The translations under genes and the position numbers were made by a program. Below are positions 36,169 through 57,257 of a stretch of DNA of 62,059 bases, piece by piece; the stretch's first letter is position 1; each line of letters starts with the position of its first letter. Source of the stretch: Crocinitomicaceae bacterium (GTDB lineage Bacteria > Bacteroidota > Bacteroidia > Flavobacteriales_D > Parvicellaceae); contig PAZE01000031.1 in assembly GCA_002716065.1 (NCBI GenBank), positions 1-62,059 on the forward strand, in the 5' to 3' direction. Below the pieces are notes generated by a model. The model was given only the letters and a program-made list of their open reading frames with translations, had not been told where the DNA came from and made no database searches.

Positions 36169-36810
36169 ATGAAAGAAAAAGAAAAAAATAAATTATTTGT
36201 TTCGGGTAAAGAATCCATTAGAATTTTTGAAAATGGTTTTTTAGAGTGGGTAACTACAACACATCATATTGTTCCATTTCTAATATTTATCCCTGTTATT
36301 GGTTATTTTGTTTGGGAAACAGTTGTTTTTACTCTTGCTGGACAAATTGAAAATTTATGGTATTTATTGCCATTGTTTTTGGCAGCAATTTTTTTATGGA
36401 CTTTTATAGAATACTCAGGACACCGTTTTGTGTTCCATAGTAAACCCAAATCAGAATTTGGTAAAAAAATGCTCTATGTTATACACGGGGCACATCATGA
36501 TTATCCTAACGACACCAAGAGGTTGGTTGTTCCTCCTTTGGTCTCAGTCACTGGTGGTATATTATTATACTGGATGTCTTACAGCATTTTTGGAAGATAT
36601 TACTCCTCTCCATTTTTTGCTTCATTAGTTTCTGCTTATCTATTTTACGATTGGTTTCATTATGCTTCACATCATGTTCGTATAAAAAACAAATACATAA
36701 GAATGTTAATTAAGCATCATTTGGATCACCACTACAGAGATCCTGATAATGGCTACGGATTTACAACCAGAATGTGGGATATACTTTTAAATACGATGTT
36801 TAAAAGGTAG
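36169..36810 (+). CDS. Fatty acid hydroxylase (FA2H/Scs7-like)
   Basis: A 213-residue membrane-bound di-iron oxygenase of the fatty acid hydroxylase superfamily. The histidine boxes are complete: HRFVFH (H85, H90), HGAHHD (H106, H109, H110), HYASHH (H164, H168, H169) and HHLDHHY (H183, H184, H187, H188). RLVVPPL after the second box and GYGFTTRMWDILLNT at the end match the fatty acid 2-hydroxylase branch (Scs7/FA2H) better than beta-carotene hydroxylase CrtZ. Alpha-hydroxylation of sphingolipid or other acyl chains is inferred. There is no cytochrome b5 domain. Its 3' end overlaps the convergent FAD oxidoreductase by 11 nt. Confidence 0.82.
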   Translation: MKEKEKNKLFVSGKESIRIFENGFLEWVTTTHHIVPFLIFIPVIGYFVWETVVFTLAGQIENLWYLLPLFLAAIFLWTFIEYSGHRFVFHSKPKSEFGKKMLYVIHGAHHDYPNDTKRLVVPPLVSVTGGILLYWMSYSIFGRYYSSPFFASLVSAYLFYDWFHYASHHVRIKNKYIRMLIKHHLDHHYRDPDNGYGFTTRMWDILLNTMFKR

Positions 36811-38140
36811 AAATTTCCTTGTTCATTAATTTAAACGCTGCCCACCTTCCACTCCTAATAGCTCCTTCTACAGTTGCACACGACAAATAATCGCCAGCAA
36901 AAACTAAGTTTCCATTTTGAGCATCTTTTATTTTATTGGCTAGTGAATATCTTCCAACTTGATGAAGAGGAATTGCATTTTCTCTATTGAAAATAGCTAC
37001 CGGGATATAATCTGCAGGTAAGGATGGCTGAAAATCTTTTGCCATATCCCAAACTTTACTGAAAATTTCTTTTTCTTCAAGATTGTTTAATTGATTGGTG
37101 GAATGATCCATTATATAAACGCTGATTAGTTCTTTTCCTTTGGGAGCTTTTATAGAGTCAATTGCTTTTATTTTGTGAAGAACAATAGCTGCAATAGGGG
37201 TTTCCCATTTTCCACATGGATAATAATAGGCAAGAGATCCTTTGGTTTCTTTTTCATCTACAAGATAAGTAGCATGTAAATTAGTAACGTATTGTTGAGA
37301 ATTAATAAAGTCTTTAATATAACTAGGAATTAAATTTTCAGGAAGTATTTTTTTTATTTGAGGTGTAGGACAGGCCATTACAATTCCATCATATAAACAA
37401 GAGGCTTCTTTAGTTGAGTTTTGGTATGTTACAAGGAATTTCGAATTATTTTTTTCTATTTTGGATACAGCAGAATTTAATTGAAGGCTACTGTTTTCAA
37501 GCAATTTCGAAGAAATACTAGCCATTCCATTTTTAAAAGTGTAAAATTTAGCATCTGCAGCTCTACCCTGGAGTACAGTAGTCATTGCTCTTGAAACATC
37601 TTCGCAAGAAAAATACCAAAAAGGCTCTACACCTGGCTTAATACAATATTCATATACATTTTCTGTTAAATAGTTTCTAGCCCAATTGGCAATAGACTCA
37701 TCATCAATTGCAGCTAATTTTTTAGGATTAACCAAATCTAGTTTTCTTCTTTGAAGTGTTAAAAGAAGTGTTTTCCAGATCATGGTAGTTTTATCTTTAA
37801 AGGACAAAAAAGGTAGATTCCAGAATGTTTTAATATCGCCAAAAGCAAATTCAGCAAGAGTTTCTTTTTCTCTTAACCCAACCCTTCTTTTAAGTTCTAA
37901 TACTTCATGATCAAGATTTAGCTCTTTTATAAGAGACAACAAAAGTGGATAGAAATTGGTGAAAAAACTTGCTCCTGTGTCAAATCTAGTTTCTCCATTG
38001 TCGAATACATGGGTTCTTCCACCAATGAAATTTTCTTTTTCGAAAACATCAACTTCATAACCATTATTGGTCAAGTAATAGGCAGCAGCTGATCCGGATG
38101 GACCAGCACCTATTACCGCTATTTTTTTTGTTTTATTCAA
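36800..38140 (-). CDS. FAD-dependent oxidoreductase (amine oxidase/protoporphyrinogen oxidase-like)
   Basis: A 446-residue flavoprotein. The Rossmann FAD motif is IAVIGAGPSGSAAAYYL (G11, G13, G16) followed by VDVFEKENFIGGRT; the C-terminal FAD motif is NLVFAGDYLSCATVEGAIRS. This architecture is shared by amine oxidases, protoporphyrinogen oxidase and phytoene desaturase-like enzymes, and the sequence alone does not choose among them. No signal peptide. It lies 4 nt after the ACAD-SCP2 gene, so it is the 13th and last gene of the operon and probably oxidises a lipid-like intermediate in that pathway. Confidence 0.82.
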   Translation of the reverse strand: MNKTKKIAVIGAGPSGSAAAYYLTNNGYEVDVFEKENFIGGRTHVFDNGETRFDTGASFFTNFYPLLLSLIKELNLDHEVLELKRRVGLREKETLAEFAFGDIKTFWNLPFLSFKDKTTMIWKTLLLTLQRRKLDLVNPKKLAAIDDESIANWARNYLTENVYEYCIKPGVEPFWYFSCEDVSRAMTTVLQGRAADAKFYTFKNGMASISSKLLENSSLQLNSAVSKIEKNNSKFLVTYQNSTKEASCLYDGIVMACPTPQIKKILPENLIPSYIKDFINSQQYVTNLHATYLVDEKETKGSLAYYYPCGKWETPIAAIVLHKIKAIDSIKAPKGKELISVYIMDHSTNQLNNLEEKEIFSKVWDMAKDFQPSLPADYIPVAIFNRENAIPLHQVGRYSLANKIKDAQNGNLVFAGDYLSCATVEGAIRSGRWAAFKLMNKEISTF

Positions 38141-38144
38141 AGTT

Positions 38145-39689
38145 CTAGGAGAATAATTGTTGAAGCTTCATAGCAACACTAGGATCTCCTTTTACTTTCA
38201 TTTTTCCTGCCATAAAAGCGCCCATGGGATTTAAATCACCAGAAAGCATAGCTTTGAAATCATCAAGGCTAACATCAACAGTGCAGTTGGCATCTTTGTC
38301 ATCCGAGCTAACTTGATTAGCTTCACCAGTTCCGTCAATAACTATTTGGTTTTCACCAAAGTTTAATTTTAAAATTGAACCTAAAGGAGATGCACTTTTG
38401 GCTTTTTCACTCATGGTGTTCATTGTGTTTTCGTAACTCATAGTTGTATTGTTTTTTGATTGATTATTATTTTTATTGTTAATTGAATTAGTTGATTTTT
38501 TTGCTGAAGCTGATGATAGCTTACTTCCTTTATGGTTGTAGGATTTATCATCAATTATCATTTTTGCTATAATTTCACGCATTATTTCCGAGGTTCCGCC
38601 TCCTATAGTACCTATTCTACTATCTCTAAATAGTCGGGCAATTTTATATTCTTCCATGTATCCATACCCCCCAAAGAATTGCATGCATTGATACATTGCT
38701 TTATCTGAAAGTTCAGTTCCTAAAAGTTTGGCCATTGAACATTCTTTTACAGCGTATTCTCCATCATTGTGTAATCTACAGCAGTGATATACGAAATACT
38801 TTATACTTTCAATTTCAGCTGATAGCTGGGCAACACGATGTCGTAGAACTTGAAATTTATTAATAGGCCTGCCAAATGCTTCTCTCTCTGCCATATATTC
38901 AAGAGCGTAATCTAATGCCGATTCAGATCCTGCATATCCGCTTATAGCACCAGCAAGTCTTTCCAATTGCAATCCTCCCATTAAATAAAAGAATCCTTGA
39001 TTTTCTTCTCCTAAGAGATTCTTTACAGGTACCTTAACATTGTCAAAAGCAAGTTCAGCGGTATCAGAAGCATGCCAGCCTAATTTTTTTAGTTTAGTGG
39101 CGGAAACACCTTCTGAGTTTCTATCAATTACCAGAAGACTAATTCCATCAAAACCAGCCTCAGGATTAGTTTTAACAACCGTTATTAGCACATCTCCATA
39201 AACTCCATTGGTAATAAATGTTTTGGACCCATTAACGATATAATGATCACCATTTTTAACGGCAGTTGTTCTAATATTTGCAACATCAGATCCAGCACCA
39301 GGCTCGGTTATAGCTATGGCACAAACCGCTTCACCGGAAATTGCTTTAGTGAGGTATTTTTCTTTAATGAAATCAGAGCCGTGCTTGAACAAATAAGGAC
39401 TAGACATGTATTGTTGCACAGATAAAGTAGCCATGAACCCACCAGAAAAAACTTTAGATATTTCTTCAATAAAAACTACGGAGAAGAAAAAATCTACGTC
39501 TATACCACCATATTTTTCGGGATAATTAAGTCCAAGATATCCCATATCTCCAAATTTTTTAATTACATCTCTTGGGATTTTGCCTTGCTCTTCCCATGTG
39601 TCAATAAAAGGAGACACTTCTTTAGCTAAAAAATCTTTTAACCCTTGTCTGAACAACTCATGTTCTTCTGTAAAATAATAATTCTTCAT
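38145..39689 (-). CDS. Acyl-CoA dehydrogenase fused to a C-terminal SCP2 domain
   Basis: A 514-residue two-domain protein. Residues 1-375 are an acyl-CoA dehydrogenase (FAD; alpha,beta-desaturation of an acyl-CoA): ITEPGAGSDVANIRTTA, GWHASDTAELAFDNVKVP and GGGTSEIMREI. The catalytic Glu is probably in LQLERLAG, as in isovaleryl/long-chain types, because the C-terminal YEGTNE glutamate position is Gly. A Ser/Asn/Lys-rich linker (about 376-416) joins an SCP2 sterol-carrier/lipid-binding domain (417-514; VSLDDFKAMLSGDLNPMGAF, MAGKMKVKGD). An in-frame ATG at 38441 begins exactly at the SCP2 part and may be the remnant of a separate gene or an internal start. Confidence 0.93.
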   Translation of the reverse strand: MKNYYFTEEHELFRQGLKDFLAKEVSPFIDTWEEQGKIPRDVIKKFGDMGYLGLNYPEKYGGIDVDFFFSVVFIEEISKVFSGGFMATLSVQQYMSSPYLFKHGSDFIKEKYLTKAISGEAVCAIAITEPGAGSDVANIRTTAVKNGDHYIVNGSKTFITNGVYGDVLITVVKTNPEAGFDGISLLVIDRNSEGVSATKLKKLGWHASDTAELAFDNVKVPVKNLLGEENQGFFYLMGGLQLERLAGAISGYAGSESALDYALEYMAEREAFGRPINKFQVLRHRVAQLSAEIESIKYFVYHCCRLHNDGEYAVKECSMAKLLGTELSDKAMYQCMQFFGGYGYMEEYKIARLFRDSRIGTIGGGTSEIMREIIAKMIIDDKSYNHKGSKLSSASAKKSTNSINNKNNNQSKNNTTMSYENTMNTMSEKAKSASPLGSILKLNFGENQIVIDGTGEANQVSSDDKDANCTVDVSLDDFKAMLSGDLNPMGAFMAGKMKVKGDPSVAMKLQQLFS

Positions 39690-39695
39690 TTTGTT

Positions 39696-40838
39696 TTAAT
39701 TTATTGTGGAAGCTGAAATAATTTCACGCATTATTTCAGATGTACCACCTCCAATTGTTCCTAGCCTGCTATCTCTAAAGATTCTAGCAGCTTTATATTC
39801 TTCCATGTATCCATAGCCACCCAAAAATTGTAGTACCCTATAACTAACTTTATCCATCAATTCTGTTGATAGAAGCTTTGACATGGCACACTCTTTTTTT
39901 ACTTGCTGACCATTTTTAAATGCTTTGCATATTTGATAGTTAAATGCTTTTTGGCATTCAATTTCAGCTGAAAGCTGAGCAATATGGTGTCTGATAACTT
40001 GAAATTTATTAATTGTTCGACCGAAAGCTTTTCTTTCTGCAATGTAGTTTAATGCATACTCAAGGGCATCTTCTGCAGCGGCAATCGATCCAATGGAAAG
40101 AACTAAACGTTCTAGTTCAAAACGCTGCATAATGTATAAAAAGCCCATGTTTTCTTTGCCAATAAGATTGGAAGCAGGAACTTTTACGTTATCAAATGAA
40201 AGCTCAGCAGTGTCTGATGCGTGCCAACCTAATTTTTTTAGCGGCCTAGCTTCCACACCTTTAGAATTGTGATCTATTAGTAGCATGCTTATGCCATCAT
40301 ATCCTTCTTTTCCGGTACGTACAGCAGCAACAATAAAATCTGAGTAAACCCCATTGGTAATAAAGGTTTTAGCTCCATTAACTATATAGAAGTCTCCTTT
40401 TTTAGCTGCTTTTGTTTTTAGTGATGCAACATCCGATCCTGAATGCGGCTCAGTAATGGCTAAACAGCCAACATATTCACCAGCAATTGCTTTTGTAAGG
40501 TATTTATCTTTTAATTGGTCACTTGCGTTTTTGTTGATGTGCTCCATGGCAAGGGTAGAGTGTGCAAGCAATGATGCTGCAGTACCTCCAGACTTACATT
40601 TGTTGAGTTCTTCAATAAGAATAACTAGGTAAAAAAGGTCCGTGTTTACTCCACCATATTTTTCATCCATACCCAAACCGAAAAATCCCATATCACCAAA
40701 TTTTTTAAAAATACTTTTAGGTAATCTTCCGATTTCTTCCCAGGAATCAACATTTAAAAGGACTTCTTTTTGTAAGAAATCTTTCAATGATTTTCTGAAA
40801 AGTTGATGTTCGTTATGGAAATAGTAGCTGTCTTTCAT
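39696..40838 (-). CDS. Acyl-CoA dehydrogenase
   Basis: A 380-residue FAD enzyme and close paralogue of the dehydrogenase half of the next gene (HELFRKSLKDFLQKEV, GWHASDTAELSFDNVKVP, GGGTSEIMREI). The catalytic base is likely the Glu in RFELERLVLS, the position used by long-chain and branched-chain types; the YEGTNE-type Glu is absent. It ends at residue 380 with no SCP2 tail. It overlaps the HSDL2-like SDR gene by 1 nt (TAATG). The pair probably arose by duplication and could act on successive chain lengths or branch positions. It resembles AtuD/LCAD-type enzymes more than MCAD types. Confidence 0.95.
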   Translation of the reverse strand: MKDSYYFHNEHQLFRKSLKDFLQKEVLLNVDSWEEIGRLPKSIFKKFGDMGFFGLGMDEKYGGVNTDLFYLVILIEELNKCKSGGTAASLLAHSTLAMEHINKNASDQLKDKYLTKAIAGEYVGCLAITEPHSGSDVASLKTKAAKKGDFYIVNGAKTFITNGVYSDFIVAAVRTGKEGYDGISMLLIDHNSKGVEARPLKKLGWHASDTAELSFDNVKVPASNLIGKENMGFLYIMQRFELERLVLSIGSIAAAEDALEYALNYIAERKAFGRTINKFQVIRHHIAQLSAEIECQKAFNYQICKAFKNGQQVKKECAMSKLLSTELMDKVSYRVLQFLGGYGYMEEYKAARIFRDSRLGTIGGGTSEIMREIISASTIN

Positions 40839-41659
40839 TATAGAAAAAGATCTTTCATTAGTGTGTTTTTGGGATTAACAGCATAGTGATTAAAATCAGT
40901 TATTCCATCTTCAATTAGAACCTCTTCATCAATAAAGAAGTTTCCAGTACATTTTTTGCTGTCTCTTGTTAAAATTGAGAATGCAGCATCGGCCATTATT
41001 TCTGGTTTTCTACTTGCTTGCACAATAGCATCTCCACCAAGTAAATTTTGTATTGCTGCCGTAGCAATTGTTGTTTTTGGCCAAAGTGCATTCGCTGCTA
41101 TTCCAGCAGATTTTAGCTCATTGGATTGACCTATAACTGTCATACTCATTCCGTATTTGCTCATGGTATAGGCTAAATGAGCACCAAACCATTTAGGATC
41201 CATATTTAATGGTGGAGATAAGGTAAGAATATGAGCGTTGTTTGATTTTTTTAAATGAGCTATACATGCTTTTGAAACTAAAAAAGTTCCTCTTACATTT
41301 ATTTCATGCATCAAATCATACCTTTTCTGAGTGGTTTGTTCAATAGGAGTTAAGCTTATAGCGCTAGCATTATTTATGAGTATATCTATTCCACCAAAAG
41401 TTTTTATTGTTTGGTCAACAGCATTTTGAATTAATTCTTCATTTCTAATATCAACTACAACAGGTAATGCTTTTCCTCCTATTTGTTCTATTTCTTCAGC
41501 AGCAGAGTAAATTGTTCCAGCTAATTTTGGATGAGGGTCAGCTGTTTTGGCTGCTACAACAATATTGCAGCCTTCTTTTGCAAGCCGAAGCGCAATTGCT
41601 TTTCCAATTCCTCTACTACTTCCAGTAATAAAAGCTGTTTTGTTTTTTAATGTTCCCAT
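40838..41659 (-). CDS. SDR oxidoreductase, HSDL2-like
   Basis: A 273-residue short-chain dehydrogenase. The cofactor motif TGSSRGIGKAIALRLAKEG, followed by IVVAAKTADPHPKLAGTIYS, and the later LTLSPPLNMDPKWFGAHLAY are signatures of the hydroxysteroid dehydrogenase-like 2 (HSDL2) branch. Catalytic Tyr and Lys are in AYTMSKYGM. Eukaryotic HSDL2 carries a C-terminal SCP2 domain; this protein does not, but the ACAD encoded two genes downstream does. NAD(P)-dependent oxidation or reduction of a hydroxy- or keto-lipid is inferred. It overlaps both neighbours by TAATG. Confidence 0.9.
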   Translation of the reverse strand: MGTLKNKTAFITGSSRGIGKAIALRLAKEGCNIVVAAKTADPHPKLAGTIYSAAEEIEQIGGKALPVVVDIRNEELIQNAVDQTIKTFGGIDILINNASAISLTPIEQTTQKRYDLMHEINVRGTFLVSKACIAHLKKSNNAHILTLSPPLNMDPKWFGAHLAYTMSKYGMSMTVIGQSNELKSAGIAANALWPKTTIATAAIQNLLGGDAIVQASRKPEIMADAAFSILTRDSKKCTGNFFIDEEVLIEDGITDFNHYAVNPKNTLMKDLFL

Positions 41660-43086
41660 TATAGTCGAATTATTTTTTTAAATAGATCATATATTTTTTC
41701 ACTGTATGGAGGATAGATAAGTTTTAAGTTTCCCCATTTTCTTTTTACCACTCCTCTTTCATTAGAAAAGTCGATAAAGCTGTGTTTTCCATTTGACTTT
41801 CCTATTCCGCTGTTGTTAAACCCTCCAAAAGGTAAATTAGGGTTAACAGTTGTAACCATAAGTTCATTGATAGCACTTCCACCAGCGGAAGTATTGTTCA
41901 TAAAATAAGTAATGTTCTTATTACTGTTACTCATAATATATAGCGCAAGAGGAGTGGGTAGTAAATGAATATAGTCGATTACTTCTTCCTTGTTCTCGTA
42001 TTCAAAAACTGGAAGAACTGGTCCGAAAATTTCTTCCTGCATTATTTTCATTTCAAAAGAAACGTTCGTAAGAACAGTAGGAGGAATGAAGTTGTCTTCT
42101 TTTATTGAGCTACTAGAAATAACTTTTTGGGCTCCATTATTTACCGCATCATCAATTAGAGATAGTATTCTTAAATAATTTTTTTCATTTATTATTCTGC
42201 AATAATCCTTAGAGTTTTCAATTCCTTTATTATCAGAATTATAGAATTTATTTATTGTTTTTTCAAACTCTTTTAAAAAAGCTGCAGTTTTACTTTTATG
42301 AATAATTGCATAATCAGGGGCAATACAAGTTTGTCCACTATTTAAACACTTTCCCCAAGCTATTTTTTCTGCTGTAGATTTAATGTTGGCAGTTTCATCT
42401 ATTATTACTGGAGATTTGCCTCCTAGTTCTAAAGTAAATGAGCTAAGATGCTCAGCTGCTGCTCTCATGATAATTTTCCCTACTGCAGGGCTGCCAGTAA
42501 AAAAGATATGATTGAATGGTTTTTTAAGAATTTTTGTTGCAACAGAAGCGTCACCTTCTAGTATAGCAACTTCATTTTCACTAAACAATTCGTTAATCAT
42601 TAGTTTTAGTATTCCAGACGTGTTTTTGGAAATTTCAGAGGGTTTTATTAGCACTGCATTTCCTGCTGCAATTGCATAGATTAATGGAATTACAGTCAAT
42701 TGAAATGGATAGTTCCAAGGTGATAGAATTAATACAGTTCCTTTTGGTTCATATTTTACGTAGGATGACATTCCTGCCATGGTTAATGGAGAAGGAACAT
42801 GTTTGTCGAGCATCCAATCTTTAAGGTTTTTATATACGTTTTTTATGGTTAATACAATAGGAGTAATTTCAGTAGAGATAACTTCTTCGTTAGATTTTCT
42901 TAAGTCCTTAAATAGGGCTTGTGCAATAGAGTTGTGATTTTTTGGGTTTAGTATATAAGCTTCAATTTTTTTAATCTTAGCTATTCTTTCTTTTGATGAG
43001 GAATTTTTAAGTTGCTGAAGATTGTTTTTCTCTTTTAGAATAGAGAAAATTGAATCTATGGATGTTTGGGATATGTCTGAGTTCAT
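41659..43086 (-). CDS. Aldehyde dehydrogenase, fatty-aldehyde (ALDH3) type
   Basis: NAD(P)-dependent oxidation of an aldehyde to its acid. I choose ATG 43086 (475 residues), which leaves 5 nt after the ligase stop; ATG 43104 would overlap that gene by 13 nt and is also possible. Motifs: LSPWNYPFQLTVIPLIYAIA, LELGGKSPVI (general-base Glu), NSGQTCIAPDY (catalytic Cys) and MQEEIFGPVLP. Gene order in the C-terminal half (PFGGFNNSGIGKSNGKHSF) and the absence of an N-terminal extension place it with class 3 enzymes such as eukaryotic fatty aldehyde dehydrogenase FALDH, which oxidises phytenal and other long isoprenoid aldehydes. It would supply acids to the next enzyme, the acyl-CoA ligase. Confidence 0.93.
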   Translation of the reverse strand: MNSDISQTSIDSIFSILKEKNNLQQLKNSSSKERIAKIKKIEAYILNPKNHNSIAQALFKDLRKSNEEVISTEITPIVLTIKNVYKNLKDWMLDKHVPSPLTMAGMSSYVKYEPKGTVLILSPWNYPFQLTVIPLIYAIAAGNAVLIKPSEISKNTSGILKLMINELFSENEVAILEGDASVATKILKKPFNHIFFTGSPAVGKIIMRAAAEHLSSFTLELGGKSPVIIDETANIKSTAEKIAWGKCLNSGQTCIAPDYAIIHKSKTAAFLKEFEKTINKFYNSDNKGIENSKDYCRIINEKNYLRILSLIDDAVNNGAQKVISSSSIKEDNFIPPTVLTNVSFEMKIMQEEIFGPVLPVFEYENKEEVIDYIHLLPTPLALYIMSNSNKNITYFMNNTSAGGSAINELMVTTVNPNLPFGGFNNSGIGKSNGKHSFIDFSNERGVVKRKWGNLKLIYPPYSEKIYDLFKKIIRL

Positions 43087-43091
43087 TTTGT

Positions 43092-44780
43092 TTAGTTTTT
43101 CCATACTATAGAACAATTATCTTGGTGCCACTGTGAATAATTATTCATGTATTTCTCATCAATTTTATTTCTTTTAACTTTAAGAGTTGGAGTCAAAAGA
43201 TTATTGTCTTCTGTCCAAGGTTCTTCAATAACTACTATAGTGGAAACTTTTTCAAAGTTGGCCAGAGATTGATTAACTTGGTTTAACAAGTTTTCAAATG
43301 TTGAGGTTATCTCTTGTTTGTCGGTTGCAACTCCACTTTCAGAAAGATTTATCAGTGCAATAGGTTGAGCAATTGATAGTCCAACAACGCAAACTTGTTC
43401 TATGAAATCATTTTTTGAAAATTTTGCTTCAATTGGATTAGGAGTTACGTATTTTCCTTTGTCTGTTTTAAATGCATCTTTAACTCTTCCAATAATATTG
43501 AGGTTGCCATCTTTATCTACAAATCCTTTATCTCCACTCAAATACCATCCATCTTTTAGTATTTCATTAGTTTTATCTTCTTCTTTGTAGTAACCAACCA
43601 TTAGTTGGTCACTTTTGTAAATAACCTCACCTGATTGTTCGTCTATTTTAAATTCTACACCTGGAATTGCTTTTCCAACACCAACATCACTAATTTCTCC
43701 TAAAGGAGTTATGGTAACAGCTCCACAAGCTTCAGTTGCTCCAAAAACTTCTCTTAGATTAATGCCGAGTTTTCTATACCACTGTTTAAGGTGTTTGGGA
43801 GTAAGTGCAGCACCTGTAAGTACAATTTCAGCTCTGGAAAGTCCTAATGCTTTTTTTAGTTTCTTCTTGATTAATGATGAAACTATTGGGGTGCTTAGCA
43901 AGAGATTTAATTTCTTTTGAGAAATTTTAGCGAGTATTCCTGATTGGAATTTATTCCATATTCTAGGTACGGCAAAAAATACGGTAGGTTGTACATCTTG
44001 TAGATTCTTAATAAACGTGTCAATAGATTCTGCAAAGGCAATAGAACCCCCAGTAAAAATAGCGGCACCTTCAATGGCAATTCTTTCAGCAACATGATTT
44101 AACGGAAGAAAGGAAAGGAAAGAATGTTCTTTTAAAAAGTGGACTCCTAATGTGTTAAACTGTTTTTCATCTTTAAAAACTACTGCAATGCTCTTGTAGT
44201 TAAGCATGACCCCTTTAGGACTTCCTGTTGTTCCAGATGTAAATAAAATAGTCCATAAATCGTCTAATTTAGGGATGTGGCTTTCTTTAATGGGAGCTTG
44301 CTTTTGTACTATTTCATCCCATTCTATCCCAACTGGAATGGTAGCATTACCTTGATAATGTGGAAATTTAATTACCATTAATTTTTCATGAAGAGCTTCA
44401 GATTTATCCTCCCATGTGTCTAGTTTACCAACAAAAAGAAGTTTTATGTCACTTTTGAGAATTACTTCCTCTAATTGTGCTTTTGGTAAACTTGCATAAA
44501 AAGGAACAGAAACGAATCCCCCAATGGACATAGCTAAATCAGCAATTATCCAATGGTAACAGTTTTTTGACAATAAACCAATGTGATCTCCTTTTTGTAA
44601 ACCAAGTGATCTTAGAGCAGCTACTAATTTTCTTGCTTCAAGACCTGCTTCCTTGTAGGAGAGTGTTTTCCAGGAATTTCCTTTAGGTTGTTTTAGAAAC
44701 TCTCTATTAGGATCACTTTTTTCCCATTTGTAAAAGTATTCAAGATGATTGATGAGGCTATTGTTAGTAGTTTTTTCCAT
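43092..44780 (-). CDS. AMP-dependent long-chain acyl-CoA synthetase
   Basis: A 562-residue acid-CoA ligase: R-COOH + ATP + CoA to R-CO-CoA + AMP + PPi. Adenylate motifs: LFTSGTTGSPKGVMLNYKS (near 190), FLPLNHVAERIAIEG, VFGATEACGAVTITPLG and SGDKGFVDKDGNLNIIGRVKD. AMP-forming FadD15/long-chain type rather than acetyl-CoA synthetase. It would activate the acid formed by the downstream aldehyde dehydrogenase; its operon position matches AtuH in the citronellol pathway. Its ATG directly follows the stop of the ACAD gene upstream (no gap). Confidence 0.93.
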   Translation of the reverse strand: MEKTTNNSLINHLEYFYKWEKSDPNREFLKQPKGNSWKTLSYKEAGLEARKLVAALRSLGLQKGDHIGLLSKNCYHWIIADLAMSIGGFVSVPFYASLPKAQLEEVILKSDIKLLFVGKLDTWEDKSEALHEKLMVIKFPHYQGNATIPVGIEWDEIVQKQAPIKESHIPKLDDLWTILFTSGTTGSPKGVMLNYKSIAVVFKDEKQFNTLGVHFLKEHSFLSFLPLNHVAERIAIEGAAIFTGGSIAFAESIDTFIKNLQDVQPTVFFAVPRIWNKFQSGILAKISQKKLNLLLSTPIVSSLIKKKLKKALGLSRAEIVLTGAALTPKHLKQWYRKLGINLREVFGATEACGAVTITPLGEISDVGVGKAIPGVEFKIDEQSGEVIYKSDQLMVGYYKEEDKTNEILKDGWYLSGDKGFVDKDGNLNIIGRVKDAFKTDKGKYVTPNPIEAKFSKNDFIEQVCVVGLSIAQPIALINLSESGVATDKQEITSTFENLLNQVNQSLANFEKVSTIVVIEEPWTEDNNLLTPTLKVKRNKIDEKYMNNYSQWHQDNCSIVWKN

Positions 44781-46570: not shown

Positions 46571-47386
46571 TTATTTTTTAGGGTTCATGAAAGATTTCAT
46601 GACATTAACTAATCCCATTTTGTCGTAATTTAAATGTTGAGCACCATCAACATATAATGTTGTTCCTGTTGTGTATGAAGAAAGATCGCTTGCATAAAAA
46701 CATACGGCATTGGAAACCTCCTCTTCTTTAGCGAATCGATGCATGGGTATCGCTTTTTTAGCTTCTTCAAACATGGCTTGAATTGGAGGTGGGTAAGTGT
46801 CAAGCCCTGAAGAATCTACTATTCCAGGGGCTACACAATTGATTCTTATATTGTAATCGCTCCATTCTTGTGCTAAAGTCTTAGTCATATTTTCTACACC
46901 TGCTCTAGCTGCTCCAGTGTGTATCATCCCCGGAAAACCTCGAAACATATCGGCAATAATGTTAACGATTATTCCTTTTTTTTGAGGAATGAAAAAAGTA
47001 TTGGCCATTTCTCTTGTCATAAAGAAAGTTCCATTGAGGTTGTTATTGATTACTGCACTCCATCCTTTATCATTGATTGTTTCCGCTAAAGCTGGAAATT
47101 GTCCTCCAGCATTGTTGATTAAAATATCCAGACTTCCATAGGACTTCTTTATGTGCTCAGCTAAAATCTGGATTTTTTCAGTTTCTCTTATGTCACAGGC
47201 TAAATGGGTTATCTCTCCATATTCCTTTAATTTTTCCGCAGCTTTTTCAAGTAGCTCTTCCTTTCTAGAGGTTATAATTACTTTAGCCCCAAGAGATAAA
47301 AGTTGTTTAGAAATAGCATAACCAATTCCACTTCTTCCTCCAGTAACTAAGGCTATTTTATTGTTAAAAGTGTTTTTGTCAAACAT
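46571..47386 (-). CDS. SDR enoyl-CoA reductase-like (PECR/2,4-dienoyl-CoA reductase type)
   Basis: A 271-residue SDR. The cofactor motif is ALVTGGRSGIGYAISKQL and NNAGGQFPALAETI follows. At the usual YxxxK site it has GMIHTGAARAGVENMTK: Tyr is absent and the GAARAGV segment matches peroxisomal trans-2-enoyl-CoA reductase (PECR) and 2,4-dienoyl-CoA reductases, which reduce C=C bonds of acyl-CoAs with NADPH. PECR acts on phytenoyl-CoA in animals. In this operon it could remove the extra double bonds of isoprenoid chains. Its ATG overlaps the TGA stop of the BKACE gene. Confidence 0.88.
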   Translation of the reverse strand: MFDKNTFNNKIALVTGGRSGIGYAISKQLLSLGAKVIITSRKEELLEKAAEKLKEYGEITHLACDIRETEKIQILAEHIKKSYGSLDILINNAGGQFPALAETINDKGWSAVINNNLNGTFFMTREMANTFFIPQKKGIIVNIIADMFRGFPGMIHTGAARAGVENMTKTLAQEWSDYNIRINCVAPGIVDSSGLDTYPPPIQAMFEEAKKAIPMHRFAKEEEVSNAVCFYASDLSSYTTGTTLYVDGAQHLNYDKMGLVNVMKSFMNPKK

Positions 47387-48254
47387 GGTCAGATTCTTTT
47401 AAAGGGGTTTTTAGCATTTCTCTTGTTTCCTGTATTGTAGCAATTGATCTACCCATCATATTGGCAAGCTTAACACCCCAATCGACACATTCTCCATTAG
47501 ATTTTGCCATTTCATTATTAGGTAAATAGAAGTTGTCTTCTAGTCCCACTCTAAAATTACCACCCATAGTACAAGCTACAGCAGCCATCTGCCATTGCTT
47601 TCTGCTAATGGCAATTACCTGCCAGAAGGCATCTTTTGGGACTTGCTCTATCTGATGAATTAGGTTTTGTGTTGTGGCTGGTATCCCCCCTAATACTCCC
47701 ATAACAAGACTGTAGCAAGCATTGTCAGGCAAGAGCCCCATCTCTCTTAGTGGTTCAGCATTTCTAATGTGTCCCGTGTCAAAGCATTCCATTTCTGGAG
47801 TAACACCATTTTCATTCATTGTCTTTACTACCTCTATCATTGTGTCAAAAGAATTTTCAAAGACTCCATTCCAAAAAAATTGTTTGGTTTTTTTTGAGAA
47901 AATAGCATAATTCATGCTTCCCATATTAAAGGCTGCCATGTCTGGTTTTGTTGCAGGTAGATGTTTTACTCTATCTTTTGCAGTCATGCCAATTGCTCCT
48001 GTTGAATAATTAATGATCACATCCGGACAACGCTTTCTTACTTGCTCATGGATTTGTTCAAAAACCTCAGTCCTCCAACTGGGGGCTCCGTCATCTTCAC
48101 GAGCATGAATGTGTACTATACTGGCTCCTGCATCTACTGCTCTTTTGGCTTCCTCTCCAAGCTCTTTAGGAGTGAAAGGAATATAAGGGCAGTGGCTTCT
48201 ATTGGTTGCTGCTCCAGTTAATGCTGCTGATAAGATTAATTTTTTTTGTCCCAT
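47379..48254 (-). CDS. Beta-keto acid cleavage enzyme (BKACE, DUF849)
   Basis: A 291-residue TIM-barrel enzyme of the BKACE family, whose founding member is 3-keto-5-aminohexanoate cleavage enzyme. The family uses acetyl-CoA and a zinc ion to cleave a free beta-keto acid into acetoacetate and a new acyl-CoA. The zinc ligands H48 and H50 (SIVHIHARED), the ECFDTGH segment, and GNFRVGLEDNFYLPNN are present. The substrate is not known, but in this operon it could turn R-CO-CH2-COOH into R-CO-CoA. It is the least expected member of an Atu/Liu-like set. Its TGA stop overlaps the next start. Confidence 0.93.
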   Translation of the reverse strand: MGQKKLILSAALTGAATNRSHCPYIPFTPKELGEEAKRAVDAGASIVHIHAREDDGAPSWRTEVFEQIHEQVRKRCPDVIINYSTGAIGMTAKDRVKHLPATKPDMAAFNMGSMNYAIFSKKTKQFFWNGVFENSFDTMIEVVKTMNENGVTPEMECFDTGHIRNAEPLREMGLLPDNACYSLVMGVLGGIPATTQNLIHQIEQVPKDAFWQVIAISRKQWQMAAVACTMGGNFRVGLEDNFYLPNNEMAKSNGECVDWGVKLANMMGRSIATIQETREMLKTPLKESDHV

Positions 48255-48260
48255 AGTTTT

Positions 48261-49079
48261 TTATTCACCAGTCCATATTGGTTTTCTTTTTTCTTTAAAT
48301 GCGCTGATTCCTTCTTGTCCATCTTTGGTCATAATGGTTTTTTGAAGCATCTGCATTAAATATTCATGCTGTCCCTGCTTTTTAGTTATTTTTTCATAAG
48401 CTTCTAATCCAAAACGAATTGCAGAAGGGGAGTTTTCTTTAAGATCTTCTATTAATGAGTTTACAGTTTCATCTACTTTCTCTTTAGTAGTGAGATTAGT
48501 TATTAACCCAAGCTCATAGGCTTCTTGAGCAGGTAGGTTATATCCTCTTATACACCAGTCTATTACTTTTCTAGCAGGCATAATGTTAATAAGTGTAGCC
48601 ATAACTTGAAAAGGAAAGATTCCTTTTTTTACTTCAGGAAGACCTAGCTTTATTTCTTTATGAGCAACTACATATGTGCTGCCAGCTAAGAAGAAAAAAC
48701 CTCCTGCATACACATCACCATTTACTTTAGCAATCACGGGTTTGTGAACAGAACTAAATAATTCTCCAATTAACAATTGATTTTTTGGTGCAGGAATGGA
48801 AGAATTAAATTCACCAGTCATACCCATGAAAGCTTTTAAATCTGCCCCTGCACAGAAAACATTTCCTTTGGCTTGAATAACAACTGCCCATATTGAATTT
48901 TCTATGTGTGCATAATTCAAGGCAAAAGCCAATTCGTTAATCATGTGTGGGTGGATCGCATTTTTCTTTTCTTCTCTGTTAAGTGTAAGGGTTAACACAT
49001 GATCTTTTTCCAAACATGTGATAAATGCAAATGTTTCTGAGTGAATATTTTGTAACTGTTCTTTACTATAGTGATCCAT
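48261..49079 (-). CDS. Enoyl-CoA hydratase/isomerase family protein
   Basis: A 272-residue crotonase-superfamily protein. The oxyanion-hole segments are FCAGADLKAFMGMT and KVNGDVYAGGFFFLAGS; LGLPEVKKGIFPFQV carries a conserved Glu. Expected reaction: hydration of a 3-substituted glutaconyl-CoA formed by the adjacent carboxylase, as AtuE or LiuC does in terpene and leucine catabolism. The gene overlaps the carboxylase alpha-subunit gene by 14 nt, which supports this coupling. Simple short-chain enoyl-CoA hydration is the alternative. Confidence 0.9.
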   Translation of the reverse strand: MDHYSKEQLQNIHSETFAFITCLEKDHVLTLTLNREEKKNAIHPHMINELAFALNYAHIENSIWAVVIQAKGNVFCAGADLKAFMGMTGEFNSSIPAPKNQLLIGELFSSVHKPVIAKVNGDVYAGGFFFLAGSTYVVAHKEIKLGLPEVKKGIFPFQVMATLINIMPARKVIDWCIRGYNLPAQEAYELGLITNLTTKEKVDETVNSLIEDLKENSPSAIRFGLEAYEKITKKQGQHEYLMQMLQKTIMTKDGQEGISAFKEKRKPIWTGE

Positions 49080-51054
49080 TTGGGCTTTTTAGTTTGATTA
49101 GTAAATGTCCAGCTTCAATATTGTCTCCCACAGAAGCGAAAACTTCTTCAACTGTACCGTCTTGATCGGCTAATATGGTATTTTCCATTTTCATGGATGA
49201 TAAAACAACTAGTCCTTCACCTGATTTTATTTTATCTCCTTCTTTTACCAATAATTTGATTACTTGAGATGGCATTGGAGATTCGTAGGTTCCTTTTTGT
49301 TTTTCTTTTTTTATTTCAGGAAACCGTTCTTGTTGGTTAAGCACTGTATTTCCAGTAGTTTCATTATTTATAAAAAAAGTGGTGCCATTTTTAATGATGC
49401 TAAATTCATGTTGAATACCATTGATTTCAATTTGTATTCTGTTCTGACTGCTACTAACAATCTGCGCTTTGTAAGAACAGTCGTTAATAGTGAAGTCAAA
49501 ATTACTTTTTACACATCTATATGTAACTTTAATAGAATCCTCTTTGTATAGGAAGGTTTCAGCTTGTGGAATATAGAAGTTGCTTCTCCATCCAGATGGA
49601 ATCGAATTAAGAAGTGTTCTTTTGTCTTCTCTTTTTTGCCAGTCGAATAATACAGCTGATAAAGCAGCTAAATTTTGCTTTTCAGTAGCTTTGTTTTCAT
49701 TGATTAATGCTGGATTTTCGTCAATAAAATGGGTATTGTATTTTCCATTTTCAAAGTCAGTATTCTTACAGATGTTTAATAAGAAATCCTGATTGGTAGT
49801 AATCCCCAAACAGTTCATGTTACTAAGTACATATTTTAATTTCCTTTGCGCACTTTCACGGTCTTTATCATGTATGATTATTTTAGCAATCATAGGATCG
49901 TAGTGAATGGTAATGGCAGAACCTGATTCAATTGATGATTCTATTCTTAAGCCATCAATTTTTGGCATATCGAATTGAAAAATAGTACCAGTTACTGGTA
50001 GAAAGTTATTGGAAGGGTCCTCGGCATATAGTCTTGCTTCTATTGCATAACCGTTTACTTTTATGTCTTTCTGTTGATGTTTTAATGCTATACCTTGCGA
50101 AGATTCAATTTGCATTTGAACAAGATCTAAACCTGTAACTTCTTCTGTAACAGGGTGCTCGACTTGAAGTCGAGTGTTTACCTCCAAAAAGTAGTAATCC
50201 TTAGAATTATCATCATAAATAAATTCAACAGTACCCGCATTATCGTAGTTAAGTGCCTTAGCTGCATTTACAGCTGAATCACCCATCTTTTTTCTTAATT
50301 TTTCACTCATAATAGGAGAGGGGCTTTCTTCTATTACTTTTTGGTGTCTTCTTTGAATCGTACATTCTCTCTCTAAAAGATGAATGGCATTACCATGCTG
50401 ATCACCAAAGATTTGAAATTCAATATGTCTTCCAGAAGAAATGTATTTTTCTACAATCATTTCATCGTCTCCAAAAGCATTTTTGGCCTCTCTTTTGGCA
50501 GATGCTATGGCATTGTCCAATTCTTTCTTGTTGTTGACCACTCTCATACCTTTACCACCTCCACCAGCTGTTGCTTTTAACAACACTGGAAACCCTATTT
50601 TTTCTGCTTCTTTTTTTAGTTTTTCATTGCTTTGATCTTTGCCTTGATAGCCAGGAATGATTGGTACATTGTGTTTAGCCATTAGGGATTTGGCTTTTGA
50701 TTTTGAGCCCATTAATTCAATGGCTTTTGAGTTGGGGCCAATAAAAATGATTTTATTTTTAACGCAAAGTTTAGCAAAAGTTGCGTTTTCAGATAAAAAT
50801 CCATATCCAGGATGAATAGCATCAGCTTGAACTCTTTTTGCTGCATCTATGATTTTGTTTTGATCTAGGTAGGAATCACTTGGATTATTGTTCCCGATAA
50901 AAACAGCACTATCTGCTTCCTTTACAAAAGGAGCATATTTATCTGCAGTTGAATAAACAGCAATAGATCTTATGCCCATTAATCGGCAGGTTCTTATTAC
51001 TCTTGAAGCAATTTCTCCTCTGTTAGCAATTAGTATGGAATCTATTTTTTTCAT
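49066..51054 (-). CDS. Acyl-CoA carboxylase alpha subunit (biotin carboxylase + biotin carrier)
   Basis: A 662-residue biotin-dependent subunit like MccA/AtuF. Biotin carboxylase fills residues 1-450 (SILIANRGEIASRVIRTCRL; ATP-grasp KATAGGGGKGMRVV; EVNTRLQVEHPVTEE). A linker/BT region follows and the C-terminal carrier has biotinylated K622 in VVLSSMKMEN. It carboxylates biotin with ATP and bicarbonate, then hands CO2 to the beta subunit encoded immediately upstream (1-nt TAATG overlap). The substrate class is set by the beta subunit. Length and domain order fit methylcrotonyl/geranyl-CoA carboxylases, not the shorter acetyl-CoA carboxylase AccC. Confidence 0.95.
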   Translation of the reverse strand: MKKIDSILIANRGEIASRVIRTCRLMGIRSIAVYSTADKYAPFVKEADSAVFIGNNNPSDSYLDQNKIIDAAKRVQADAIHPGYGFLSENATFAKLCVKNKIIFIGPNSKAIELMGSKSKAKSLMAKHNVPIIPGYQGKDQSNEKLKKEAEKIGFPVLLKATAGGGGKGMRVVNNKKELDNAIASAKREAKNAFGDDEMIVEKYISSGRHIEFQIFGDQHGNAIHLLERECTIQRRHQKVIEESPSPIMSEKLRKKMGDSAVNAAKALNYDNAGTVEFIYDDNSKDYYFLEVNTRLQVEHPVTEEVTGLDLVQMQIESSQGIALKHQQKDIKVNGYAIEARLYAEDPSNNFLPVTGTIFQFDMPKIDGLRIESSIESGSAITIHYDPMIAKIIIHDKDRESAQRKLKYVLSNMNCLGITTNQDFLLNICKNTDFENGKYNTHFIDENPALINENKATEKQNLAALSAVLFDWQKREDKRTLLNSIPSGWRSNFYIPQAETFLYKEDSIKVTYRCVKSNFDFTINDCSYKAQIVSSSQNRIQIEINGIQHEFSIIKNGTTFFINNETTGNTVLNQQERFPEIKKEKQKGTYESPMPSQVIKLLVKEGDKIKSGEGLVVLSSMKMENTILADQDGTVEEVFASVGDNIEAGHLLIKLKSPNGSL

Positions 51055-52655
51055 TACATTCTCCAGACGCCAAAACTGTCTGCGCCTTTTATCTTTTGAT
51101 TGTACAATACGGCTAAAGCAAAGCCTAGATAATTTCTTGTTTCTCTTGGATCGATTACTCCATCATCCCATAGCTCAGAAGTTGAATGCCATGAAGAAGC
51201 TTTGGATTCTGCTTCGCTTATTAGCATTGCTTTAATCATGTTGCCTTGCTCTTGGTCATATTCTTCTCCTCTTGCTTTTGCAGAAGCTCTTTGAATAATC
51301 TCCATCACCCCAGAAAGTTGTTCCGATCCCATAACACCAATCTTAGCATTTGGGTAAGTAAATAGAAAATTAGGGTCGTACGATCTTCCGTTCATTCCGT
51401 AATTACCTGCTCCAAAAGAAGAACCAATCATTAGGGTAATAGAAGGAACTTCACTGTTGGATACTGCATTGATCAGTTTGGCTCCGTTTTTAATGATTCC
51501 TCCTTCTTCATATTCTTTACCCACCATATATCCAGTAGTGTTTTGTAAAAAAATTAAAGGAATATCGTTTTTATTGGAAAGCTGAATAAAATGGGCCGCT
51601 TTGTTAGCAGAATCAGAAAAGATAACTCCATTGTTTCCTAGTATTCCAACAGGGTATCCGTGAATTTTAGTCCAGCCACATACCATAGTTTTGCCGAATT
51701 CAGGTTTGAATTCAGAAAATTCAGATCCATCCGTAACTCTCATAATCAGCTCTCTAACATCCATAGGTGTTTTAACATCTGCAGGTACTACACCTAAAAT
51801 CTCTTCGGGATTGAATAATGGTGGTTTAATCTGTTTTTCAGCAGATTGATGTGGTTTTTCAACTTTAATGAACTCCATTATTTCTCTTGCCATTCTAATG
51901 CCATCGAATTCGTCTTCTGCTAAATAATCTGAAACTCCAGAAACTCGGCTGTGCATTTGAGCACCTCCCAATTCTTCTTCTGTTGAAACTTCATTAGTTG
52001 CCATTTTTACCAATGGAGGTCCTGCGAGGAATACTTTTGCTGCGTTCTTTTGAAAGATGGCATAGTCAGACATTCCAGGAACATAAGCACCTCCTGCAGT
52101 AGCATTTCCAAAAACTACAGAAATGGTAGTAAGTCCCATTTTAGATCTTCTTGTAATTTCTCTAAATGCTTCGCCTCCATAGTTGAAGATCTTTGCCTGA
52201 TCTGGAAGATTGGCACCTCCACTTTCTACAAGATTAATAGTGGGTAATTTATTCTCTCTCGTAATCTGACTTACTCTAAGCCCCTTAAATACGGTAGCAT
52301 AATCAACAGATCCACCTTTTCTAGTACCCACATTAGAATTAATCATACAGAGTTTTCCTTGGACAAGACCTATTCCAGAAACATTGGTTCCTCCGGCTCC
52401 AAAACCTCCTTTTTTTTCCATTCCAGCTAAAGGAAGTAATTCTAGAAAAGGGCTGTCTTTGTCTAAAACATATTCGATTCGCTCTCTAGCAAGCATTTTA
52501 CCTCTTTTTCTTGCTTTTTCTATATGCTTTTCTTTTCCTTGAAATCGAGCTTCATGCAAATGTTTTTCTAGTTTTTCAACCAGTTTTAACATTTCAGAAG
52601 CATTTTCGGCAAAGGCTTCGCTATTGGCGTTGATATTTGATTTTAGCTTTTTCAA
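51054..52655 (-). CDS. Acyl-CoA carboxylase beta subunit (carboxyltransferase), geranyl/methylcrotonyl type
   Basis: A 533-residue carboxyltransferase. GGSVDYATVFKGLRVSQ, NLVESGGANLPDQ, NATAGGAYVPGMSDYA and KVFLAGPPLVKMAT bind CoA and the acyl group; LQNTTGYMVGKEYEEGG and GSSFGAGNYGMNGR are in the biotin half. The segment before the TAGGAYVP motif reads EAFREITRRSKMGL where classic MCC-beta has RIFFNQARMSAQGI, so this is not an ordinary leucine-pathway MCC. ELGGAQMHSRVSGVSDYLAE is typical of AtuC/acyl-CoA carboxylase relatives. Likely substrate: a beta-methyl alpha,beta-unsaturated acyl-CoA. It is first after tetR (11 nt gap). Confidence 0.92.
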   Translation of the reverse strand: MKKLKSNINANSEAFAENASEMLKLVEKLEKHLHEARFQGKEKHIEKARKRGKMLARERIEYVLDKDSPFLELLPLAGMEKKGGFGAGGTNVSGIGLVQGKLCMINSNVGTRKGGSVDYATVFKGLRVSQITRENKLPTINLVESGGANLPDQAKIFNYGGEAFREITRRSKMGLTTISVVFGNATAGGAYVPGMSDYAIFQKNAAKVFLAGPPLVKMATNEVSTEEELGGAQMHSRVSGVSDYLAEDEFDGIRMAREIMEFIKVEKPHQSAEKQIKPPLFNPEEILGVVPADVKTPMDVRELIMRVTDGSEFSEFKPEFGKTMVCGWTKIHGYPVGILGNNGVIFSDSANKAAHFIQLSNKNDIPLIFLQNTTGYMVGKEYEEGGIIKNGAKLINAVSNSEVPSITLMIGSSFGAGNYGMNGRSYDPNFLFTYPNAKIGVMGSEQLSGVMEIIQRASAKARGEEYDQEQGNMIKAMLISEAESKASSWHSTSELWDDGVIDPRETRNYLGFALAVLYNQKIKGADSFGVWRM

Positions 52656-52666
52656 TGTGCCAACAA

Positions 52667-53323
52667 TTAAAATGAGATGTAGTTAGAAAGGTTTACTTCA
52701 AAAGGCTTACTGATTTCATTGAAATAATCTTCACCAAAGAATTTTTTGAACGATTGCATTCCTTTGTCTGTAAAATGTGGAATCATAAGGCTCCAAATGA
52801 TTTTCTCTCCATCTTTAATGGATATTTCATTACATACGTTTTCTTTTGAATTCCAATAAAATGCAATTAACCATGTTAAAAAGGCAATGTTGTTATAGGT
52901 TCCGGGAAACTGTTCTTCTTTTACATTTCCTATGCTTATTGAAAATGCAATACCAGCTTTAATATCATTTATAAAATGGCTGGTCATTTCTTTGAATTTT
53001 TTTCTTAGCATTTGATTATTCAGCACATGGGGGTCTTGAAAAATAAATGAATACTGCTTTTGAAATTTAAAATACAATTGTACTTCGTTATGTAGGTTTT
53101 CAAAAGAAGGTAGCTGTCTAGACTTAGCTCTTTCTTTCTCTATTTTATCCCACATTTGGTCAGATATTCCTTTTAGAAGACTCTCTTTATCTTTAAAATG
53201 ATAGGTTAGATTTCCTCTACTTATTCCTAATGTGTTTGCGAGCTCAAATAAATTAACTGCACTAAATCCTGACTTGTTAAAGGCTTTGGTGGCCTCATTC
53301 ATTATTTTTTCTCTTGTTTTCAC
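52667..53323 (-). CDS. TetR/AcrR-family transcriptional regulator
   Basis: A 218-residue dimeric repressor. The N-terminal helix-turn-helix is clear (MNEATKAFNKSGFSAVNLFELANTLGISRGNLTYHFKDKESLL, read in pieces at about 8-50). The C-terminal ligand domain is not assignable. It heads the 13-gene operon and lies 21 nt downstream of a palindrome-overlapped promoter, so it probably represses its own operon and is released by an acyl-CoA intermediate, as AtuR is in Pseudomonas. The effector is inferred. Confidence 0.93.
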   Translation of the reverse strand: MKTREKIMNEATKAFNKSGFSAVNLFELANTLGISRGNLTYHFKDKESLLKGISDQMWDKIEKERAKSRQLPSFENLHNEVQLYFKFQKQYSFIFQDPHVLNNQMLRKKFKEMTSHFINDIKAGIAFSISIGNVKEEQFPGTYNNIAFLTWLIAFYWNSKENVCNEISIKDGEKIIWSLMIPHFTDKGMQSFKKFFGEDYFNEISKPFEVNLSNYISF

Positions 53324-55885: not shown

Positions 55886-57139
55886 TTATAACCCAAATGC
55901 AGTTTTAACTTTTTCTGTATAGTTCAGCTCTTCCCAAGGGAATAGTTTAACACTTACCTTTTGAGTTTTTCCTGCAGCATCTTTAAATTCCTTCTCTACC
56001 TCTTTACATTCTCTTCCCATGTGCCCGTATGCAGCTGTTTCTGAATAGATAGGAGTTCTTAGGTTAAAACGGCTCTCAATAGCGTAAGGACGCATGTCAA
56101 AGATGTCTTCAAGCTTTCTAGCGATTGCCCCATCAGATAGGTCTACTTTAGATGTACCATAGGTGTCTATATATAACCCCATTGGTTTGGCAACACCAAT
56201 AGCATAGGCTACCTGAACAAGTACTTCATCACATAATCCAGCAGCAACAACATTTTTTGCAATGTGTCTAGTAGCATATGCAGCAGAGCGGTCTACTTTA
56301 CTTGGGTCTTTACCAGAAAAAGCACCACCACCGTGAGCTCCTTTTCCACCGTAGGTATCAACAATAATTTTTCTTCCTGTTAATCCAGTATCTCCATGTG
56401 GTCCTCCAATAACAAAAATTCCAGTAGGATTTACGTGGTAAGTAATTTGGTCGTTAAATAAGCCCTGGATGTGAGTAGGTAACTTAGCTTTAACTCTAGG
56501 GATTAATATGTTAATAACATCAGCTTTAATCTTATCTAGCATTTGCTGCTCACCAGCAAAATCATCATGTTGGGTAGAAATAACAATTGCATCAATTCGA
56601 ACAGGTTTATTGTCGTCAGAATATTCAATTGTTACCTGAGATTTAGAATCAGGTCTTAAATAAGTAATTTCATTGTTTTCTCTTCTTAGAGCAGCAAGCT
56701 CTTTTAATAGTAGGTGAGAAATTTCTAATGGTAAAGGCATGAAACTTTCTGTTTCATTGGTAGCGTAACCAAACATCATTCCTTGGTCTCCTGCACCTTG
56801 CTCTTCTTTTACTTGTCTTTCAACACCTTGATTAATATCTGGAGATTGTTCATGAATAGCGGAAAAAACTCCACATGAGTTTCCATCAAACATGTATTCA
56901 CTTTTGGTGTAGCCAATTTTATTGATTACATCTCTTGCAATCTTTTGAACATCTAAGTAGGTAGTAGATTTTACTTCTCCAGCTAATACAACCTGACCGG
57001 TAGTTACAAGGGTCTCACAAGCAACTTTAGATTCAGGGTCAAAAGCAAGAAAATTATCTATTAATGCATCTGAAATTTGATCGGCAACTTTATCAGGATG
57101 ACCTTCTGATACCGATTCTGAAGTAAATAAATATGACAT
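55886..57139 (-). CDS. metK: S-adenosylmethionine synthetase
   Basis: Makes SAM from methionine and ATP, 417 residues. Motifs: [52 protein letters not shown] and [19 protein letters not shown]. It has the roughly 30-residue longer middle region seen in many Bacteroidota. It is preceded by a SAM-II riboswitch, so feedback by its own product is expected. The convergent der gene ends across a terminator. Confidence 0.98.
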
Positions 57140-57193: not shown

Positions 57194-57247
57194 GGATTAA
57201 ATTTTAGCTTTTTTAATGTGGTTGCAAGCAATCAAATCAGTCCACCT
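57194..57247 (-). ncRNA. SAM-II riboswitch upstream of metK
   Basis: On the minus strand the leader reads GTGG-AC-TGATTTGATTGCTTGCAA-CCAC-ATTAAAAAA-GCTAAAA. The P1 arms GTGG (57245-57242) and CCAC (57221-57218), the conserved UGAUUU, UUGCAA and the downstream GCUAAAA (57208-57202) match the SAM-II consensus for the pseudoknot. The last element lies about 60 nt before the metK ATG, and no terminator follows, in line with translational control. SAM-II is known mainly in Alphaproteobacteria and Bacteroidota. The call is by eye; a covariance search would settle it. Confidence 0.85.
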
Positions 57248-57257
57248 GTATCGATCG

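Follow-up and report, generated by a model that had tools for sequence, protein, structure and literature searches.

SCP2-type carriers in animals aid the breakdown of branched and sterol-derived fats, and to our knowledge the reason why eukaryotic SCP2 is so often tied to the enzymes that degrade branched chains and sterol side chains is poorly understood. In SCPx, the animal SCP2/3-oxoacyl-CoA thiolase, the carrier forms the C-terminus of an enzyme acting on CoA esters, and in MFE-2 and HSDL2 it likewise closes a lipid-breakdown enzyme, there an SDR. The SCPx gene has two transcription starts, through which it gives both the fused protein and SCP2 on its own (PMC4762939), and an acyltransferase with a C-terminal SCP2 domain, WS/DGAT, has already been published for Bacteroidota (PMC10351704). 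Atu clusters, which support acyclic-terpene catabolism in Pseudomonas, encode the AtuB/G dehydrogenases, the AtuC/F geranyl-CoA carboxylase (GCC), the AtuD citronellyl-CoA dehydrogenase, the AtuE hydratase, the AtuH ligase and AtuR (PMC4847356).

The gene considered here lies in a 62,059-nucleotide stretch of DNA from a Crocinitomicaceae genome, called the window in what follows, and places SCP2 behind an acyl-CoA dehydrogenase (ACAD). As in SCPx, the carrier is found at the C-terminus of a CoA-ester enzyme, but Pfam finds an ACAD before SCP2 and no thiolase domain, and free SCP2 is only a possible product, which would depend on an internal translation start and not on a second transcription start. 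Mammalian SCP2 is the nearest to the window domain in both sequence and fold. In contrast to HSDL2, the HSDL2-like SDR of the window operon has no SCP2, the carrier being found on the ACAD, and SDR and SCP2 are here in separate chains. The WS/DGAT fusion belongs to the same phylum and has the domain at the same end, but is an acyltransferase, not a dehydrogenase. LCAD/IVD-type ACADs (2pg0, human LCAD 8w0t, IVD 1ivh) have the same fold and the same catalytic-base position, to which the window enzyme adds an SCP2 tail and a tandem paralogue. With the Atu operon the window operon has in common TetR, a GCC-type carboxyltransferase beta (CT beta) and biotin carboxylase (BC) alpha pair, an ACAD, a hydratase, SDRs and a ligase, and it differs in having BKACE (a beta-keto acid cleavage enzyme), an aldehyde dehydrogenase (ALDH), an ACAD of the FadE type and a pair of ACADs with SCP2. 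By analogy, the ACAD-SCP2 protein can be said to resemble SCPx and MFE-2, which likewise attach SCP2 to an enzyme of beta-oxidation, while being a member of neither; a search of the open-access literature found no paper describing it. We lean, with modest confidence, towards understanding it as part of an old Bacteroidota family of ACADs with a tethered SCP2 carrier, which would belong to a pathway handling acyl-CoAs of branched or isoprenoid type, and whose carrier, of the kind named type A below, would stem from a separate gene.

The fusion protein and its paired dehydrogenase

The initial annotation had described the reading frame 38145-39689(-) as an ACAD joined to SCP2, and Pfam bears this out for the 514-aa product that begins at its ATG (Table 1). 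Acyl-CoA_dh_N, M and 1 span residues 7-378 (E 1e-29, 3e-23 and 3e-42) and PF02036 (SCP2) occupies residues 446-513 (E 4.9e-16; 59.4 bits for a cut-off of 21.3), all four domains scoring far above their cut-offs. The other landmarks proposed for the protein are also where they were expected: the GGGTSEIMREI tail at residues 363-373, a linker rich in Ser, Asn and Lys (GC about 0.24, against 0.36-0.37 on its flanks), and MSYENTMN from residue 417, so that 38441 is the correct position for the in-frame ATG at the junction. An AlphaFold2 model of the whole protein, built with 29 orthologues in a shallow alignment (overall pLDDT 77), consists of an ACAD fold, a disordered stretch at about 385-416 (pLDDT 26-49 for residues 385-416) and a compact C-terminal domain. 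Modelled alone with 22 sequences, the SCP2 part reaches a pLDDT of 90 and has human SCP2 as its top solved match (2c0l, E 7e-8), rabbit SCP2 and the SCP2 of MFE-2 being also among the best; a sequence search returns 2c0l again, at 3e-11. The domain thus belongs to SCP2 both by profile score, which exceeds the curated cut-off, and by fold.

Table 1. Features of the fusion gene and of the operon around it (window coordinates)
Feature	Position	Strand	Remark
TetR-type regulator, operon head	52667..53323	-	
Carboxyltransferase beta subunit with GCC signature	51054..52655	-	
Biotin carboxylase/BCCP alpha subunit	49066..51054	-	
Enoyl-CoA hydratase	48261..49079	-	
BKACE, beta-keto acid cleavage enzyme	47379..48254	-	
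SDR	46571..47386	-	
FadE-type long acyl-CoA dehydrogenase, 594 aa	44781..46565	-	
AMP-forming acyl-CoA ligase	43092..44780	-	
Aldehyde dehydrogenase	41659..43098	-	
HSDL2-like SDR (PRK08278), without SCP2 domain	40838..41659	-	
Paired beta ACAD, 380 aa, without SCP2	39696..40838	-	SCP2-B fused in Chitinophagales relatives
ACAD-SCP2 fusion gene (alpha ACAD)	38145..39689	-	514 aa, ATG to TAG, one frame
Acyl-CoA dehydrogenase part, residues 1-384	38538..39689	-	
Disordered Ser/Asn/Lys linker, residues 385-416	38442..38537	-	
SCP2 domain, type A, residues 417-514	38148..38441	-	
Junction ATG, candidate internal translation start	38439..38441	-	In register with free SCP2-A start codons
FAD amine-oxidase-like protein, last operon gene	36800..38140	-	4 nt after fusion gene

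The N, M and C domains of an ACAD are all present in the enzyme part, the best solved fold match of which is Geobacillus 2pg0, followed by human LCAD. According to family motifs, Glu243, in the LERL helix, stands at the catalytic-base position of IVD and LCAD, and Gly364 at the position of Glu376 of MCAD; we take Glu243, so placed by its motif, to be the catalytic base. On these motifs the enzyme half is classed as an IVD/LCAD-type acyl-CoA dehydrogenase. The same IVD/LCAD-type Glu is kept in the two paralogues found side by side at this locus, named alpha (the fusion) and beta (its upstream neighbour). Paired ACADs in Mycobacterium form alpha2beta2 enzymes. Here, relatives carry both partners in one chain, in the order beta-alpha-SCP2 in L011:8852-11518 (cut by the contig end), alpha-beta in L054:9998-12379 and alpha-like-beta in the Gelidibacter locus L032:3-2060, and fusion in both orders suggests that alpha and beta act together as a working pair.

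The fusion is real and conserved. A misassembly of the linker, against which the initial annotation had cautioned, or a frameshift, is ruled out by the presence of the fusion in independent MAGs, in the single-cell genome L010 and in two Gelidibacter isolates. As a domain joining it is ordinary; what is unusual in it is the partner enzyme, the two carrier types met at one site, and an apparently preserved start signal.

Distribution, age and origin of the tail

Scanning 84,980 species genomes gave 79 loci, and those matching an ACAD with its tail are all from Bacteroidota (Crocinitomicaceae, other Flavobacteriales, Saprospiraceae, Chitinophagales and the two Gelidibacter isolates), with the addition of one Calditrichaeota MAG. 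The fusion is kept in about 45 loci, while the unfused ACADs nearest to it have no tail. Within the family of the window genome, 6 of 39 genomes have an SCP2 of any kind, always in frames of 516-526 aa, and the ACAD-SCP2 fusion is the only SCP2 found in the window genome, which is 85% complete. The fusion family is old, being common to dozens of related Bacteroidota genomes.

ACAD trees, a quick one of 89 rows and a careful one of 75, split into two paralogous lineages, alpha and beta, and the tails fall into two SCP2 types, A (that of the window gene) and B. In one group of Chitinophagales the two tandem ACADs each have an SCP2-B tail, and the Calditrichaeota ACAD-SCP2B (L057) sits on a long branch, placed either at the base of beta or outside both lineages, so that its position is unsure. 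Taken together, these two observations lead to what is the simplest reading of the trees, namely that the ACAD was already fused when alpha and beta arose by duplication, that the tail was then lost from most beta copies, and that type A took over from type B in most alpha copies; type B would thus probably be the older of the two. Among complete members of the alpha clade only L054 is without fused SCP2, so that a recent origin of the fusion is not supported, and a fusion present in all homologues since the origin of the family, which the initial annotation had set against its own reading, is nearly what is observed, L054 excepted.

The initial annotation had proposed that a separate SCP2 gene lost its upstream stop, and asked for such a gene at the same place in other genomes. 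Three have it: L042, where an alpha ACAD with an SCP2-B tail is followed after 28 nt by the start of a free SCP2-A gene (end of the reading frame 2837, ATG 2866), an arrangement expected of the precursor; L040, where a free SCP2-A gene lies about 390 nt behind the ACAD gene; and L086, where it lies behind an ACAD-SCP2A. The proposal is further strengthened by the register of the free SCP2-A starts with the junction Met, provided that it is moved to an ancient time. The type-A domain would probably derive, then, from a neighbouring separate SCP2 gene, joined to the ACAD via its former leader and replacing an older type-B tail. SCP2-A may have joined the ACAD several times independently, the few columns behind the SCP2 tree being insufficient to put the events in order. 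In Chitinophagales, free SCP2-B genes are found on the opposite strand, directly before the operon (L049:52-387(-), L052:1513-1908(-)).

SCP2 is also found on other enzymes. SCP2-B is joined to CoA-transferase family III in four relatives' genomes (G803, G805, G807 and G806), where it sits at the N-terminus (L155:1-1072(-), plus L156, L157 and L158); the nearest solved structure to this transferase is succinate-hydroxymethylglutarate CoA-transferase, alpha-methylacyl-CoA racemase ranking lower. SCP2 frames of 526-558 aa in some relatives resemble further ACAD-SCP2 proteins in size, but the four that were examined are CoA-transferase III with N-terminal SCP2. A WS/DGAT of about 600 aa with C-terminal SCP2 is present in Saprospiraceae-type genomes (L126:1-1818(+), L129). 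With SCP2-B on a CoA-transferase and SCP2 on WS/DGAT, the module has been appended repeatedly to acyl-CoA enzymes, and we infer that it presents bulky, hydrophobic acyl-CoAs to whichever enzyme carries it.

The seam between enzyme and carrier

Free SCP2-A proteins begin with MSLQDL, MSVESI, MAFETI or MSLETT, and their Met sits exactly 19 residues ahead of a conserved L/I-G motif. The junction Met is found at this same distance in 19 fused rows, at 21 residues in the two Gelidibacter rows and at 18 in one, and it persists even though the linkers of relatives are unalignable. This persistence is one of the reasons to consider, tentatively, that ribosomes also initiate at the junction ATG, yielding the full fusion and a free SCP2 as the eukaryotic SCPx/SCP2 gene does. 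Scored with a matrix built from the window's own starts over the upstream 20 nt, the junction ATG reaches 6.3 bits, above all 272 internal in-frame ATGs, above some 97% of real starts and, when every codon position is compared, beyond the 99th percentile; yet the linker is A-rich throughout, and a position at residue 389 that is not an ATG outscores it. The mRNA is unusually open at this place (-2.5 kcal/mol, where internal ATGs give -10.7 and real starts -6.0). In its final 21 nt the linker is more A-rich than in its remainder in all 22 Met-bearing relatives and in 5 of the 16 without the Met; once near relatives are merged by eye, the A-rich leader with Met amounts to about 12 lineages (sign test, P 0.0005). 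A separate SCP2 gene is rarer in the presence of the Met (6 of 19, versus 14 of 16 in its absence; Fisher P 0.0016 on raw counts), but this association loses its significance after correction for kinship, which leaves three usable pairs. The L013 genome also has a separate SCP2-A gene, which would bring the count without Met to 15 of 16, the P value given being that of the original count. Finally, the junction Met has been lost in several lineages, and a fossil start codon would give a similar picture.

The signal at the junction is therefore one that fits either a start still in use or a fossil decaying slowly. A gene of the first kind would have arisen when a downstream SCP2 gene joined the ACAD while keeping its start signal. 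We hold it unlikely that the one gene supplies both ACAD-SCP2 and, from 38441, a free SCP2 serving as carrier for the other enzymes of an isoprenoid acyl-CoA pathway, a solution that would be convergent with SCPx/SCP2.

The operon, its carboxylase and the substrates to be expected

The operon is transcribed in the order TetR, CT beta, BC alpha, enoyl-CoA hydratase, BKACE, SDR, FadE-type ACAD, ligase and ALDH, continuing with the HSDL2-like SDR, beta ACAD, alpha ACAD-SCP2 and the FAD amine-oxidase-like protein. A fatty acid hydroxylase gene (PF04116, window 36169-36810(+)) is convergent with the last of these, with an overlap of 11 nt. Large parts of the operon recur beside the fusion in many relatives. 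GCC-type enzymes are told from MCC by a Gly in place of Phe191 and by the absence of a three-residue insert, and they also accept 3-methylcrotonyl-CoA (PMC4673880). In the alignment the window CT beta reads KIF---NYGGEAF, where MCC has EVFPDREHFGRIFF and GCC has EIF---VEGARGF; it is without the insert and has Gly for Phe191, as have the CT beta subunits of L011, L019, L027, L032 and L033, while that of L036, also without the insert, has Ala at the Phe191 position. The window subunit also has the N-terminal helix region that the published GCC rules call for. The only other CT beta found in the 85%-complete window genome is PCC-like, so that the operon carboxylase may also be used for leucine breakdown. 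An HMG-CoA-lyase-like frame is found on contig C44, cut by the contig end and scoring under the NCBIfam cut-off.

It is the likeness of this operon to Atu catabolism that makes us propose SCP2 as a tethered carrier for branched or isoprenoid acyl-CoAs, and we infer a pathway for such isoprenoid-type compounds as the setting of the ACAD-SCP2 enzyme. The ligase would make the CoA ester; the SCP2 domain would bind its greasy acyl chain and hand it over to the active site of the ACAD; the alpha/beta pair would form the alpha,beta double bond, and the GCC-type carboxylase would carboxylate the gamma carbon; the hydratase, with BKACE and/or an HMG-CoA lyase encoded elsewhere in the genome, would complete removal of the branch. 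Against this reading stand the overall score of CT beta, which at 512 bits for MCC and 487 bits for GCC leans slightly to MCC, the failure to find AtuA in the window genome, control genomes having also given no match, and the position of the fusion outside the operon in about a third of the loci.

A rival reading is a Liu operon for leucine and isovalerate, in which the SCP2 tail would be a passive or oligomerizing appendage. The Liu gene set fits as well, with an ACAD, an MCC-like carboxylase, a hydratase and an HMG-CoA lyase elsewhere, and 3-methylcrotonyl-CoA is also a substrate of GCC-type enzymes (PMC4673880). We nevertheless regard this account as quite improbable, since it makes the ligase, ALDH, SDRs, long FadE and lipid carrier superfluous, while CT beta displays the open pocket signature of GCC and the SCP2 domain has been kept with about 15 residues invariant over 22 diverse rows. 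Far less credible is a recent local accident that would have moved SCP2 from the HSDL2-like SDR onto the ACAD, the exchange of partners suggested in the initial annotation. That SDR does lie two genes from the fusion, and its identification was right, as was the remark that it lacks the carrier: its best PDB match is human HSDL2 (3kvo, E 5e-101) and Pfam finds no SCP2 in it. However, by the ACAD trees the fusion is old and carried by nearly all of the alpha clade; bacterial HSDL2-like SDRs are natively without SCP2, those of known structure having 274-285 aa and no room for it; no SDR-SCP2 fusion was found among the frames examined, a subset of all frames; and what type A appears to have displaced is the ACAD's own type-B SCP2, not a domain derived from an SDR.

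If the tethered carrier does serve branched and isoprenoid acyl-CoAs, the fusion would mark an isoprenoid-type acyl-CoA pathway that is widespread among Bacteroidota of the sea and of sludge and apparently undescribed. Two kinds of SCP2 at a single enzyme site, with relatives that are free, fused or possibly dual-product, make a natural test set, and cultured isolates such as Gelidibacter allow tether lengths, carrier types and losses to be compared. Elsewhere in the window, a SAM-II riboswitch (57194-57251(-)) lies directly upstream of an S-adenosylmethionine synthetase gene (55886-57139(-)); it is an ordinary one, though the gene behind it makes SAM itself.
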